DNA from: Candidatus Coatesiibacteriota bacterium
Lineage (GTDB): Bacteria; RBG-13-66-14; B26-G2; JAUVZD01
Assembly: GCA_030602715.1 (NCBI GenBank)
Contig: JAUVZD010000005.1
Span: 62,001-126,000, forward strand
Direction: 5' to 3'
Length of the DNA stretch: 64,000 nt
In this document: positions 51,203-59,674 of the stretch, piece after piece
How positions within the stretch are numbered: the stretch's first letter is position 1
How the letters are laid out: every line of letters begins with the position of its first letter
Made by a program: the position numbers and the translations under genes
The notes under the pieces: model-generated
Told to the model about the DNA's origin: nothing
The model's input: only the letters and a program-made list of their open reading frames with translations
Databases searched by the model: none

Positions 51203-51613
51203 TTGGAGGTGGTCGGGCGACCGCGCTTGCCCCATTTTGGGGCGGTGAGGAAAGTCCGAACTCCACAGGGCAGGGTGCTGGGTAATACCCAGGGGGGGCG
51301 ACCCCATGGAAAGTGCCGCAGAAACTACACCGCCTAAGCCGGGGTATCCCGGCCGGTAAGGGTGAAATGGTGAGGTAAGAGCTCACCGGTGGGCGGGGTG
51401 ACCCGCTCAGCCGGGCAAACCCCACCCGGAGCAATGCCAAACAGGGCTGAGCCGTAAGGACCGGATGACCCGTCCGGCGGTCGCAAGTCCCGAAGCCCGG
51501 GTAGGCTGCAAAGAGGAGGGGGGAGACCCCATCCCAAGACGAATGGTCGTCGGCGGTTTCCTCAGAGGGGGTAAGAGGCGCCGCTCACAGAATTCGGCTT
51601 ATGACTACCTCCA
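51203..51613 (+). ncRNA. rnpB: RNase P RNA, bacterial class A
   Basis: The catalytic RNA that matures tRNA 5' ends. Conserved blocks are clear: GAGGAAAGTCCGAACTCC near the 5' end, GCCGCAGAAACTACACC, AGGGTGAAATGGTGAGGTAA in the core, and ACAGAATTCGGCTTATGA at the 3' end. The terminal P1 stem is formed by GGAGGT at 51205 and ACCTCC at 51607. The length of about 410 bases is normal for type A. It has its own promoter and a strong hairpin after it. Confidence 0.95.
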
Positions 51614-51647
51614 TCCCCCACATCTAAATGCTATATATGTGACCTAA

Positions 51648-52369: not shown

Positions 52370-52445
52370 TGGTGGGCAGAACAGGATTTGAACCTGCGAC
52401 CTCCTGCTTGTAAGGCAGGCGCTCTCCCATCTGAGCTATCCGCCC
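52370..52445 (-). tRNA. tRNA-Val (anticodon UAC)
   Basis: On the minus strand the gene starts GGGCGGATAGCTCAG and folds into a full cloverleaf with a 7-base-pair acceptor stem (one G-U), an anticodon stem CCTGC/GCAGG around the loop CTTACAA, and a T arm with GGTTCAAATCC. The CCA end is encoded. The anticodon TAC reads valine codons. Confidence 0.96.
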
Positions 52446-52630: not shown

Positions 52631-54349
52631 ATGAACAGGAACAATAAAGTCATGTTTATTCTTGCCAGCGTCTTAATAACCTCGGGAATAAGTATTTCTT
52701 ACTCAGCGGATTGGCATATTACTACGGTGAAGAACGACGATGATGGATTTGGATTTGAAAATGTTCATATAAGACTAGACAGTGAAGACCGTCCTTACAT
52801 AACATTTAATGATGAGTGGTGGGATGGGGTGTATGAATGGTATGATTATCTCAAATATGCTTACTGGACGGGGGATAGTTGGGATATTGCTTCAATAGAC
52901 GTCATATACGGCATTTTCAATGATACCTCCTTGGCTCTGGACTCCCGGGATTACCCTTTGATAGCCTATACTTGCCTTTACTACACGGGGAATAAACAGT
53001 ATGGCTCTTTGCTATTAGCTACCTGGACGGGAAGCGATTGGGATATTCAGGATGTATGTGAGGAGTTAGAACCCTCTCCGGACTTGACCTCTTTGGCGGT
53101 GGATAGTCTGGACCATCCCCATATGGTATTTAATTGTCGGGAAGATGGTCCTTCTCCTGGTTTAAACTACGCTCAATGGTCCGGTTCCGTCTGGAATACT
53201 CAGGCGGTGGATTCAGAGACGAATTTGGATGATGGGTCCATTAAAGTAGATTCAGAGAATAGTCCACACATTGCTTATATAACAGGTTATTCCAATCGTG
53301 ACCTGAAATACGCAGAATTGGTAGCAGGAACCTGGTCTGTACAGGTTCTTGATAGTGGCTATTTATCAACTGCTTCATTAGTTTTGGATAGCATGGAATT
53401 CCCTCACATTACTTATCGTCATGATGGCGTTAAATATTACTACTGGGATGGAGCCACCTGGGTTTTTGAAACTGTTGATACTGCTGGTGATGATCCCAGT
53501 CTCGCTCTGGACAGTCTGGATGTCCCCCATATCGCTTATACTGATTCTGCGGACGCACTTAAATATGCCCATAAAATTGGGGATAGTTGGGAGATTACTA
53601 CTTTTGATAATACTCATGCAAACAGCCTTTCTCTGACTCTGGACAGCCAGGACCATCCCCACATCTGCTTCTACGACTATGTCTTAGAAAAGTTGAGATA
53701 CCTCTGGTATGGAGACCCGCTTACTGAAATATCTCTTCAGTCCTTTACTACAAATTATGTAGCCGAAGAGATAGTGGTCCAATGGTCTGTCTCCGACTCC
53801 ACCTCAGATGAGCAAATCGCCGGCTTCAACCTCTATCGTAGAGAGATGGGGGCGGAGGATGATGTTGGGAGTGGTGGTGTAAGTGATGATGGCTTTCCAC
53901 CTATACAAAATGAAGCTATAAAGACCTGGTCCAAGATTAACTCCCAGCTCATCACCGGTGAAAATCCTTATGAATTTACCGACAGCGATGTGCAGGGGGG
54001 CTTTACCTACGAATACAAGCTGGAGGCGGTGCTAGCTGACCAATCCACAGAAGTTCTGGGCACAGCAAGCTGTGCCACTACGCCCACCTCCTTCGCCATC
54101 AACAAGCTTTATCCTAACCCGGCAAGCGACCACCTCGCCTGCCTTCTTTCCGTCCCCAATGCCGGCTTGGTGGAGCTTGCGCTATACGACCTTTCCGGTC
54201 GCCTAGTTGCCTGCCAAAAGCTGGAGGCTGCCGAGGCGACGGAGCTTGAAGCGGTGATGGATGTTTCTTCGCTGGCTAGCGGGGTCTATATATTACAGGC
54301 GACCTACGGTGATGCTCAAACTAGCACTCTGGCTGTAGTGGCGCGATAA
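52631..54349 (+). CDS. Secreted repeat protein with T9SS type A sorting domain
   Basis: A 572-residue secreted protein. A signal peptide (about 1-25) is followed by seven or eight repeats to about residue 360, e.g. SLALDSLDVPHIAYTDSADA and SLTLDSQDHPHICFYDYV, each with a D-S-x-D-x-P-H core and a W-D/W-E strand, probably a beta-propeller. A fibronectin-like segment follows (about 375-480). The last 80 residues are a type IX sorting domain: INKLYPNPASDHLAC, LYDLSGRLV, and LASGVYILQATYGD. Such domains route proteins through the type IX system to the cell surface. A good AGGAGGTGGGG ribosome-binding site precedes the ATG. The codon and base composition is slightly more AT-rich than its neighbours. 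Confidence 0.88.
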   Translation: MNRNNKVMFILASVLITSGISISYSADWHITTVKNDDDGFGFENVHIRLDSEDRPYITFNDEWWDGVYEWYDYLKYAYWTGDSWDIASIDVIYGIFNDTSLALDSRDYPLIAYTCLYYTGNKQYGSLLLATWTGSDWDIQDVCEELEPSPDLTSLAVDSLDHPHMVFNCREDGPSPGLNYAQWSGSVWNTQAVDSETNLDDGSIKVDSENSPHIAYITGYSNRDLKYAELVAGTWSVQVLDSGYLSTASLVLDSMEFPHITYRHDGVKYYYWDGATWVFETVDTAGDDPSLALDSLDVPHIAYTDSADALKYAHKIGDSWEITTFDNTHANSLSLTLDSQDHPHICFYDYVLEKLRYLWYGDPLTEISLQSFTTNYVAEEIVVQWSVSDSTSDEQIAGFNLYRREMGAEDDVGSGGVSDDGFPPIQNEAIKTWSKINSQLITGENPYEFTDSDVQGGFTYEYKLEAVLADQSTEVLGTASCATTPTSFAINKLYPNPASDHLACLLSVPNAGLVELALYDLSGRLVACQKLEAAEATELEAVMDVSSLASGVYILQATYGDAQTSTLAVVAR

Positions 54350-55551: not shown

Positions 55552-56877
55552 TCAATCCTTCTCCAGCGCCTCTTCAATCTTCTTACTAAACCACTCCATC
55601 CGCTTGGCTATCTCCCGCTCAAAGCCTATCTTCTTGGGCTGGTAGAACTCTCTCTTCTCCGGTAGATACTTTTGGGCAACGAAGCCTGCGGGATAGTCGT
55701 GCGGATAGAGATACTCCACCCCTTCCGGCAGGCGATGTGGGGGCAGATTGCGCAGGTGCATGGGGACGGGCATTATGGGTTTTTCCCGCAGGTCCTTCTG
55801 TGCCCGGCTCAGCGCTATATAAGCGGAGTTGGATTTGGGAGCGGTGGCGATATAGACCGTGGCTTCTGCCAGGGGTATGGCGCCCTCCGGTAGACCGATA
55901 TGTTCTAAGGCGACCATTGCCGAGGTGGCGATGGGAAGCGCCTGCGGGTCGGCAAGACCGACATCCTCGGCGGCGGAGATGACCAGTCGGCGGGCGATGA
56001 ACATGGGGTCTTCGCCACCTTCTATCATCTTTGCCAGCCAGTAGAGGGAGGCGTCGGGGTCGCTTCCCCTGAGGGACTTGATGAAGGCGGAGATGGTCTG
56101 GTAGTGCTCGTCTTCATCGGCATCATAGCTGATGTGCCGTCTCTGCACCGACTCCTGCGCCGTCTCCAGGTCTATGCGCACCACGCCCTTCTCATTCGGT
56201 GCGGTGGAAAGGGCGGCTATCTCCAGGGTGTTTAGCAGTCGGCGTGCGTCTCCCCCGGCGATGTCAATCAGGAAGCTCTGGGCTTTCTTGTCCACCTTGA
56301 CTTTCATACTGCCCAGCCCCCGCTCCTTGTCGGTGAGCGCTCTCTTCATTATCTCCAGCAGATGTTTCTCCTCCAGGAGCTCAAGCTCAAAGACGGTGGA
56401 GCGAGAGAGCAAGGTGGAGTTTATGCTGAAATAGGGGTTGTGGACGGTGGCTCCGATCAGGGTGATGGTGCCCCTCTCGGTGTGGGGAAGGAGGGCGTCC
56501 TGCTGGGCTTTGTTGAAGCGGTGTAGCTCGTCTATAAATAGTATGGTTATGCGCTGGGTTTGGCGCAAGCGGTTGCGCGCCGATTCCACCTCCGCCCTAA
56601 GCTCCTTGACCCCGGCACTGACCGCATTCAGGGTTACGAAGGTGCTTTGGGTGGTGTTGGATATCACTTCAGCCAGGCTGGTCTTACCGCATCCCGGAGG
56701 ACCGGTGAGGATGAGGTTGGTCAGGCGCTTGGCTTCAAGCATTCTACGCAGTAGCCGTCCGGGTCCGAGGAGATGTTCCTGACCGGCGAACTCCTCAAGG
56801 GTGCGGGGTCGCATGCGCGCGGCTAGTGGTGTTGCTTTCTCCTCCGCCTCATTCTCATTCTGGAACAGATCGCTCAT
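55552..56877 (-). CDS. rarA: Replication-associated recombination protein RarA (MgsA)
   Basis: A 441-residue AAA ATPase of the clamp-loader-like RarA/MgsA family that acts at stalled forks. Walker A LTGPPGCGKTSL, Walker B ILFIDELHRFNKAQQD, and the RarA-typical C-terminal segment (MIEGGEDPMFIARRLVISA and MPVPMHLRN) are present. The ATG at 56877 is chosen over the frame opening at 56925. No ribosome-binding site precedes it; instead TGCTATTATAAAACT lies directly before the ATG, so a leaderless transcript is possible. A structured RNA gene ends 35 bases upstream. Confidence 0.94.
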   Translation of the reverse strand: MSDLFQNENEAEEKATPLAARMRPRTLEEFAGQEHLLGPGRLLRRMLEAKRLTNLILTGPPGCGKTSLAEVISNTTQSTFVTLNAVSAGVKELRAEVESARNRLRQTQRITILFIDELHRFNKAQQDALLPHTERGTITLIGATVHNPYFSINSTLLSRSTVFELELLEEKHLLEIMKRALTDKERGLGSMKVKVDKKAQSFLIDIAGGDARRLLNTLEIAALSTAPNEKGVVRIDLETAQESVQRRHISYDADEDEHYQTISAFIKSLRGSDPDASLYWLAKMIEGGEDPMFIARRLVISAAEDVGLADPQALPIATSAMVALEHIGLPEGAIPLAEATVYIATAPKSNSAYIALSRAQKDLREKPIMPVPMHLRNLPPHRLPEGVEYLYPHDYPAGFVAQKYLPEKREFYQPKKIGFEREIAKRMEWFSKKIEEALEKD

Positions 56878-56911: not shown

Positions 56912-57129
56912 AAAAAAATCCCCACCCTGCCGTGTGGAGGACCGAACTTTAGAACCTGTTCTACCAGGTGGGAGGCTTGTGTTCAGCTTCATGCTCCCCA
57001 CCCGGGGCATGCAATCCACCGCACAACTCAGCGTCCCTTTCTAGGTTCGTTGGCTCTAAAAATATCGCTCCATCACGAACATGGTAGGGAATATGGTATA
57101 TCCCTCCAAGCCTCTTTCTCAAAGAACCT
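56912..57129 (-). ncRNA. Structured non-coding RNA, 6S RNA-like
   Basis: About 218 bases of non-coding transcript between priA and rarA. It starts just after a perfect consensus promoter and ends at an intrinsic terminator (CTCCAC/GTGGGG, seven T residues). Inside, CGAACCTAGAA pairs with TTCTAAAGTTCG, GAGTTGTG with CACAAGCCTC (two-base bulge), and ATGCCCC with GGGGAGCAT at the tip. The apical text GCGGTGGATTGCATGCCCC, then GGGGAGCATGAAGC, is like the conserved GCGG-T-GG-GCATG hairpin and AAGCC region of E. coli 6S RNA. 6S RNA binds the sigma-70 polymerase as a promoter mimic. Location beside rarA also occurs for 6S genes in other groups, as far as I recall. The assignment is likely but not certain; three small extra hairpins lie at the 5' side. 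Confidence 0.55.
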
Positions 57130-57134
57130 TGATA

Positions 57135-57163
57135 ATTATAATTATTCCGTCGATATATGTCAA
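57135..57163 (-). promoter_or_regulatory. Perfect consensus sigma-70 promoter
   Basis: TTGACA (57163-57158) and TATAAT (57140-57135) on the minus strand match the consensus at all 12 positions with a 17-base spacer. Transcription would start near 57129 into the structured RNA. Confidence 0.9.
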
Positions 57164-57214: not shown

Positions 57215-59674
57215 TTATAATAGGTCAACCGGGTCCACATCTACATACATCCGCCCAAAGCGCCCCTTGCGCCCCCAGGGCAGATGGCGGATGGAGGCGA
57301 GCATCTCCTGCATAATGGTCGCTTTGGGAGCGGAGATGATTATCTGCCAGCGATAGTAACCGCGCATGCGGGAGATAGCCGCCGGTGCAGGTCCCAATAT
57401 GCGCACATCGGTAAGTCCCCTCTCCTCCTTGGCAATCTCCAGTTGTCGGCGCAACTTTGTCGCCTGCTCTTTGGCAACGCCCTTTCTACGGTCCTCCGCC
57501 ATCACCACCGCAATACGGCTGAAGGGAGGATAAGACAGGCGCTTGCGGAACACAATCTCTCTTTCATAGAAGCTGGGATAGTCCTGCTTGGCAGCCAGGG
57601 CTACCGCATAGTGCTTGGGTTGGAAGGTCTGGATGATAGCCAGCCCGCCGGCTTCGCCTCTACCGCTTCTGCCGCAGACCTGGGTGAGCAGTTGGAAGGT
57701 GCGTTCCCCGGCACGAAAGTCCGGCAGAGCCAGAGCGGTGTCTGCGCTCACCACCCCCACCAAGCCCACATTGGGATAGTCCAATCCCTTGGACACCATT
57801 TGCGTGCCGATAAGAACATTATGTTCTCCGCTTCCAAAGGCGGATAGTATCTCCTGGTGGCTTCCCGCCCGACGGGTGGCATCGGCGTCCATGCGCACCA
57901 GCCCCACTTCCCCCAGAATGTGCTCCAGTTCCTCAAGCACCTGTTCGGTGCCCAAGCCGAGCAGTTCTATGCTCCCCTCTTTGCACTGCAGGCATTTTTT
58001 CGGCAGGGAACGATTGTAGTAGCAGTAGTGGCACTCCAGCCGATTTGTGGCTTGATGGTAGGTGAGGGTGACATCACAGCGGGGACAGCGCATGGTGTGC
58101 CCACACTCCTTGCATATTGCCACGGTAGCGTAGCCTCTGCGGTTTTGCAGTAGAATCGCCTGGTGGTTAGCCTTCAGCGTGGCGAGGGTGGCGTCAATCA
58201 GCTCCTTGCTGAAGAAGCGGGAGGTGCCGAAGCGCTCTGAGCGGCGCATGTCCACCACTTTCACCTCCGGAAGGGGAAGCTCCTTCACACGCTTGGTAAG
58301 CACCGCCAGAGTGTATTTTCCACCTTTGGCGTTGTGATAGGATTCCAGACTGGGGGTGGCACTGCCCAGTATGACCGGTGCCGGAGGGGAGGAGATAGCC
58401 GCTCGCTTGATTGCTGTATCCCTGCCGTGATAGCGGGGGTTGGGCTCGGACTGCTTGTAGCTGGCGTCGTGTTCCTCATCCACCACGATTAAACCGATAT
58501 TTTCCAGGGGGGAGAAGACCGCCGAGCGAGGACCTACCACCGCATCAAGCAGTCCCAGACGAGCCTTGCGCCAGACGGCGAAACGGCTGGCAAGGGTCAT
58601 GTTGGAATGGAACACACTGACGCCGGTCCCCAAAGCCTTCTGGAAGCGCTCTATCGTCTGGGGGGTGAGCGATATCTCCGGCACCAGGACGATTGCCTGC
58701 TTGCCGTTGGCGATGACCTGCTCCACAGCACGAATGTAGAGATAGGTCTTGCCGGAGCCGGTAACACCATAGATGAGCATGGTGGCGTGCTTCTCCCCGC
58801 TCAGTAATTCCTCAATCTGCTTTAGGGCTGACGTTTGTTCCTTGGTGGGGGGCAGGGGCTTGGGGGGGGTGGGGGGTGTTGGACTCTCCTCCTCGGGGAT
58901 GCTCATATAAGCCAAGCCCAGTTTGAGCAGGGACCTCGCGGTCGCTCGGCTGGTCTCCCGCTCCACCTCTTTGAAGGGTATGGGGAAGAGGGAGGAGAGG
59001 AGAATGTTGAGGGCTTTGGCTCGGGATTTTGCCCGCTTTCCCTCCTCCGCAAGATACTTACTTGCCGTTTCCCGGTCTATGGGGGTGAGGAGCGCATATT
59101 CGTAGGCATCTGCGGGATTGGTGATGAATGGCATGACAGCGACCAGTTCTTCGCCTACCAAGGTGCGCAATGTTCTATGTAACACCCAGAGGCTCAAACC
59201 GAGCAGGGAAACCAGCTCGTCGGTGGTGGCTATTCCTTTTAGCTGTAGGTGGTCCAGGATAGCCTTTTTGGTCTTCTCCAGCTTCTGCCAGTCGCCACTT
59301 TTGCTTATCCCCGATGGAGTCAGCGAGACCAGGTCGTGACATTTGACCTTCAGCCCACCGGGGAGCATGGCATTGAAGACCTCGCCGATGGGGGAGAGGT
59401 AGTATTCGGCGAGCCAGTCGGCTAGTTTCAGTAGATGGGTGCTGAACAGGGGCAGATGGTTCAGGGGACGGAGGACCTCTTTTATGTCCGGGAATTGGGG
59501 CTTGGAGGTTTGACCCAGGACGACTCCCGGGATCTCCTTCTGCTTGCCGAAGTTGACCAGCACCCTATCGCCGGGTCTGAGCAAACCCCGCCCCTCCTCG
59601 CACACCCCGTAGGTGAAGGAGCCTCCGGCGGCTACCCCAACGGCGATGTTGACATATTCGCTGTATTCGCTCAT
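57215..59674 (-). CDS. priA: Primosomal replication protein PriA
   Basis: An 819-residue helicase that restarts stalled forks. The N-terminal 3'-DNA-binding domain begins VNIAVGVAAGGSFTYGV. Walker A is GVTGSGKTYLY near residue 300, the DEEH motif VVDEEHDASYKQ near 395, and the zinc region holds eight cysteines (CKECGHTMRCPRC, then CHYCYYNRSLPKKCLQC). VLIGTQMVSKGLDYPNV is the later helicase motif. I prefer the ATG at 59674; a longer frame opening at a TTG at 59710 runs through the upstream terminator hairpin. Confidence 0.96.
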   Translation of the reverse strand: MSEYSEYVNIAVGVAAGGSFTYGVCEEGRGLLRPGDRVLVNFGKQKEIPGVVLGQTSKPQFPDIKEVLRPLNHLPLFSTHLLKLADWLAEYYLSPIGEVFNAMLPGGLKVKCHDLVSLTPSGISKSGDWQKLEKTKKAILDHLQLKGIATTDELVSLLGLSLWVLHRTLRTLVGEELVAVMPFITNPADAYEYALLTPIDRETASKYLAEEGKRAKSRAKALNILLSSLFPIPFKEVERETSRATARSLLKLGLAYMSIPEEESPTPPTPPKPLPPTKEQTSALKQIEELLSGEKHATMLIYGVTGSGKTYLYIRAVEQVIANGKQAIVLVPEISLTPQTIERFQKALGTGVSVFHSNMTLASRFAVWRKARLGLLDAVVGPRSAVFSPLENIGLIVVDEEHDASYKQSEPNPRYHGRDTAIKRAAISSPPAPVILGSATPSLESYHNAKGGKYTLAVLTKRVKELPLPEVKVVDMRRSERFGTSRFFSKELIDATLATLKANHQAILLQNRRGYATVAICKECGHTMRCPRCDVTLTYHQATNRLECHYCYYNRSLPKKCLQCKEGSIELLGLGTEQVLEELEHILGEVGLVRMDADATRRAGSHQEILSAFGSGEHNVLIGTQMVSKGLDYPNVGLVGVVSADTALALPDFRAGERTFQLLTQVCGRSGRGEAGGLAIIQTFQPKHYAVALAAKQDYPSFYEREIVFRKRLSYPPFSRIAVVMAEDRRKGVAKEQATKLRRQLEIAKEERGLTDVRILGPAPAAISRMRGYYRWQIIISAPKATIMQEMLASIRHLPWGRKGRFGRMYVDVDPVDLL

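Follow-up and report, generated by a model that had tools for sequence, protein, structure and literature searches.

The window, meaning the whole stretch of 64,000 nucleotides that was analyzed, almost certainly contains a canonical, single-copy 6S RNA gene whose role at the RNA polymerase holoenzyme is assigned by homology. The gene is real, ordinary, and well conserved. An Rfam scan of the whole window matched it to RF00013 (6S/SsrS) on the minus strand at 100.4 bits (E value, 5.1e-19), compared with a gathering score of 46.4 bits for this family, and the alignment spans all 187 positions of the model (1 to 187). An earlier note made from the letters alone had described a 6S-like RNA here, and this full-length match, well over the cutoff, bears out that reading. 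Table 1 collects the coordinates. For a phylum with few sampled genomes, the result provides a 6S annotation that can be made with confidence; its value is mainly in annotation, and its wider scientific consequence is small.

Table 1. Coordinates of the 6S RNA gene, its predicted parts, and its neighbors (positions in the window)
Feature	Position	Strand	Basis or remark
-35 hexamer TTGACA of the 6S promoter	57158..57163	minus	promoter scan
-10 hexamer TATAAT, 17-nt spacer	57135..57140	minus	promoter scan
Predicted 5' leader of the primary transcript, about 35 to 36 nt, small hairpin	57094..57128	minus	distance from -10 to body compared with relatives; fold
6S/SsrS RNA body (RF00013)	56915..57093	minus	covariance-model match
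3' central-bubble hairpin ACCUG-GUAGAA-CAGGU, predicted when pRNA is bound	56954..56969	minus	constrained fold
U7 run at 3' end, intrinsic-terminator-like	56912..56918	minus	sequence; terminator scan
Predicted pRNA 5'-GUUGGCUCUAAAAA	57049..57062	plus	template is 6S positions 45 to 32; alignment; fold with template blocked
rarA (mgsA)	55552..56877	minus	Pfam MgsA_C, 3.9e-63; downstream of 6S, same strand
priA	57215..59671	minus	Pfam PriA domains; upstream, same strand; start codon approximate

Family membership and fold

On either strand at the locus, Rfam families other than RF00013 gave only chance-level scores, and a search of the 2.3-Mb genome, which is rated 100% complete, found one copy of 6S RNA. 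The hallmark motifs of the family are present, namely, GUGAUGG, GAGCCAAC, CCCACCUG..CAGGUUC, and CACGGCA; of these, the bubble motifs GAGCCAAC, in the pRNA template region, and CCCACCUG..CAGGUUC align with the 6S RNAs of relatives. With other members of RF00013 the gene shares the full-length covariance-model match, a rod with a central bubble, the motifs, a length of about 180 nt, and a pRNA template region. It differs in what appears to be a leader of about 36 nt at the 5' end, and the rest lies within the range of the family.

The mature part of the RNA (183 to 191 nt) folds at -75.2 kcal/mol (z = -4.1), a value that none of 200 shuffled sequences equaled, as expected from the nested stems that had been proposed; with the leader included, the z score of the minimum free energy is -2.8. 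Moreover, covariation was measured in 28 6S homologues from many lineages, which were aligned by sequence alone and onto which the Rfam structure was mapped through the window. Under that structure, 69.7% of cells were paired, in comparison to 60.8% after shuffling and approximately 50% when the structure was slid by one column. Double changes occurred in 174 cells (94.7 when shuffled), the covariation score was 0.294 (0.173 when shuffled), and none of 500 shuffles attained any of these values. Aligned homologues, therefore, covary above both the shuffled and the slid controls, which is the check that the earlier note had suggested. RNAalifold, given no structure as input, recovered the closing stem; 9 of its 15 pairs show compensatory changes. 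The apical arm was aligned less well (63% of cells paired). The 6S rod, with its closing stem, central bubble, and apical arm, is evidenced by the covariance-model match and the covariation together. In the free RNA, RNAfold shuts the central bubble in part and, taken alone, does not show it open. A long helix that would collapse the central bubble was also considered and rejected, as it is not consistent across the 28 sequences.

Promoter, leader, and 3' end

The promoter upstream of the gene (57163-57135) is the sole site in the 64 kb that carries all 12 consensus core bases, TTGACA and TATAAT at a 17-nt spacing, where shuffled sequences predict 0.04 such sites; the match first noted from the letters is both exact and unique in the window. 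Transcription would start near 57128. The length of 218 nt previously given for the RNA, counted from about 57129 to the U run, is also correct. Although the coordinates of that extent hold, it takes in an extra leader, and the conserved 6S body is limited to the stretch matched by the model.

The -10 element ends 41 nt from the 6S body, a distance that would leave a leader of about 36 nt. In class mates, 2 nt separate the best promoter from the body, and in many other relatives the gap is within about 25 nt. Such a long leader is absent from the class mates checked. The leader is probably removed during maturation, and it may only reflect promoter turnover. A weak candidate site, TTGAGA-16-TATACC, which may be a chance match, lies nearer the 6S body, at the place where class mates have their promoter. 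The idea that the leader hairpin competes with the closing stem was also examined and set aside: an alternative pairing of -7.7 kcal/mol exists, yet the pair probabilities of the closing stem are near 1 in the precursor. We regard as improbable a regulatory scheme in which 6S RNA is made as a precursor whose structured leader is unusually long, from a promoter of maximal strength, with a weak second promoter at the class-mate position, so that leader removal or promoter choice would control the accumulation of active 6S RNA, and partial read-through would couple 6S output to rarA.

The U7 run stands immediately 3' of the closing stem, as expected from the intrinsic terminator that had been claimed; the local 6-bp hairpin that the terminator scan places directly 5' of the T7, however, is a match of a kind that turns up in this region about as often as chance predicts (4 such hits against 2.9 expected). 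Taken together, the consensus promoter and the terminator-like 3' end are sequence signals that would fit a separate transcript. A protein-coding reading of the locus was rejected because it has no substantial frame. To that degree the absence of an open frame asserted earlier holds, but short same-strand frames do exist inside the 6S gene: one of 45 amino acids, one of 53 amino acids, and a third that extends rarA N-terminally to a GTG codon and barely touches the U run.

The rarA neighborhood and alternative readings

The 6S gene lies directly upstream of rarA, as had been noticed, with 37 nt between the 6S body and the rarA ATG at 56877. The 6S RNA of lactic acid bacteria and the 6S-1 RNA of Bacillus subtilis have already been linked to rarA in the literature, and so the neighborhood here is no novelty (PMC8414754). 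The order differs, however. The rarA gene precedes 6S in lactic acid bacteria and has the opposite direction in B. subtilis (PMC8414754), whereas here 6S precedes rarA and shares its strand, as in three alicyclobacilli and three genomes of other lineages. The genes next to 6S in this genome also differ from those in Escherichia coli, where the neighbors are zapA and ygfA.

RF00013 matched at an E value of 0.1 or lower in 10 of the 14 genomes of the same phylum. Within the class, the genome studied (G000) has the 37-nt spacing between the 6S body and the rarA ATG; in G003, G002, G004, and G006, 6S also precedes rarA and shares its strand, at about 137 nt from the start of the match in G003 and at about 1 kb in the other three, where an opposite-strand gene intervenes. 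For G005, the genome search with RF00013 gave no match; the 6S motifs were read upstream of rarA, where a sensitive RF00013 scan then scored 33.9 bits (E value, 2.5e-5). This divergent 6S (L146, 1716-1892, minus strand), directly upstream of rarA and below the Rfam cutoff, was found by its position, so that 6S stands just upstream of rarA in every one of the six class members with an identified rarA. Position upstream of rarA can, therefore, reveal divergent 6S genes that score below the Rfam cutoff. Neither a rarA ortholog nor an RF00013 match was found in G001 (91% complete, 200 contigs), and searches of G007 and G011 gave no RF00013 match. The 6S and rarA genes fall on separate contigs in the phylum's other class, where adjacency cannot be demonstrated.

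Among other lineages, G028, G034, and G051 have 6S directly before rarA. Among 80 named rarA neighborhoods, only 3 hold an above-cutoff 6S within about 3 kb, all of them alicyclobacilli; the arrangement is thus patchy, and a general rule of rarA adjacency in bacteria was rejected. In three loci of other lineages (L042, L043, and L044), 6S follows a small gene that looks zapA-like by eye and precedes rarA or an apparent RNase Y gene.

This proximity raises the question of whether the element is instead a structured 5' leader of rarA, transcribed from the consensus promoter into rarA and acting in cis. The shared strand, the 37 nt to the ATG, and the failure to identify a convincing separate rarA promoter are all compatible with such a leader. 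We nevertheless consider it very unlikely, given that the whole length of the element fits a trans-acting RNA family and that the element ends in a U7 run, that a hairpin and T run lie between 6S and rarA in class mates, that G002, G004, and G006 have an opposite-strand gene in between, and that the other class of the phylum has 6S off the rarA contig. The termination signal here and the hairpin and T run that class mates have of their own argue against the plain rarA leader that had been named as the competing explanation, and this form of it was rejected because class mates part the two genes by hairpins or an inserted gene. Some read-through into rarA may occur besides the 6S function.

Another candidate is a 6S relative that binds core polymerase rather than sigma-bound holoenzyme, like Ms1, which is described as a structural relative of 6S (PMC9130861). 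The high RF00013 score, the retention of the bubble motifs of holoenzyme-binding 6S RNAs, and the description of Ms1 from Actinobacteria leave this reading even less probable than a cis-acting leader. The chance that the element is a fortuitous structure or a decayed 6S copy is negligible: nothing was found in its favor, and the E value of 5e-19, the intact promoter and conserved motifs, and the absence of a second copy from a genome rated 100% complete rule this out at the sequence level.

Predicted pRNA and release

Open-promoter mimicry, holoenzyme binding, and pRNA-driven release are known from the 6S literature (PMC8876501, PMC8414754), and the following mechanism is proposed for the 6S RNA described here. 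RNA polymerase with the primary sigma factor would transcribe the gene from its full-consensus promoter and end transcription at the U7 run that follows the closing stem. By analogy, the 6S body of about 180 nt would mimic an open promoter, and in starved cells it would occupy the housekeeping holoenzyme, so that housekeeping transcription would fall. Once nutrients are back, polymerase would copy the 5' strand of the bubble into a pRNA that starts with G, whose predicted 5' end reads GUUGGCUC. Synthesis of the pRNA would open the downstream helix, allowing the 3'-bubble hairpin to form and polymerase to be freed; for the refolding step, the backing is the constrained fold.

The pRNA start is placed at G57049 on the plus strand, as suggested by homology with B. 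subtilis and E. coli and by alignment of the template region. Its G start and early GG pair are common to the pRNA of B. subtilis 6S-1, and Gram-negative pRNAs have the GG pair at positions 4/5, the same as predicted here. The core of the pRNA template in E. coli 6S is GAGCC, which is also present in this RNA; the initiating base of the E. coli pRNA is A, in contrast to the predicted G. When the 14 template bases were blocked in a single-sequence fold, the pair probabilities of the 3'-bubble hairpin were predicted to be 0.66 to 1.0, in comparison to 0.0 in the free RNA. A hairpin in the 3' central bubble has been described for pRNA-bound 6S RNA of E. coli and B. subtilis (PMC8876501), and the constrained fold agrees with this known rearrangement and supports the predicted refolding.

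Other features were seen along the way. The window also contains a bacterial RNase P class A RNA (51205-51616, plus strand; 263.7 bits) less than 6 kb from the 6S gene, a tRNA gene from the Rfam scan (52373-52445, minus strand), and a predicted protein (52631-54349, plus strand) with a C-terminal end that by eye is like a type A sorting domain (YPNPASDHL...). Lastly, a distant genome (G070) has two 6S copies on different contigs (C338:6688-6869 and C171:11475-11656).
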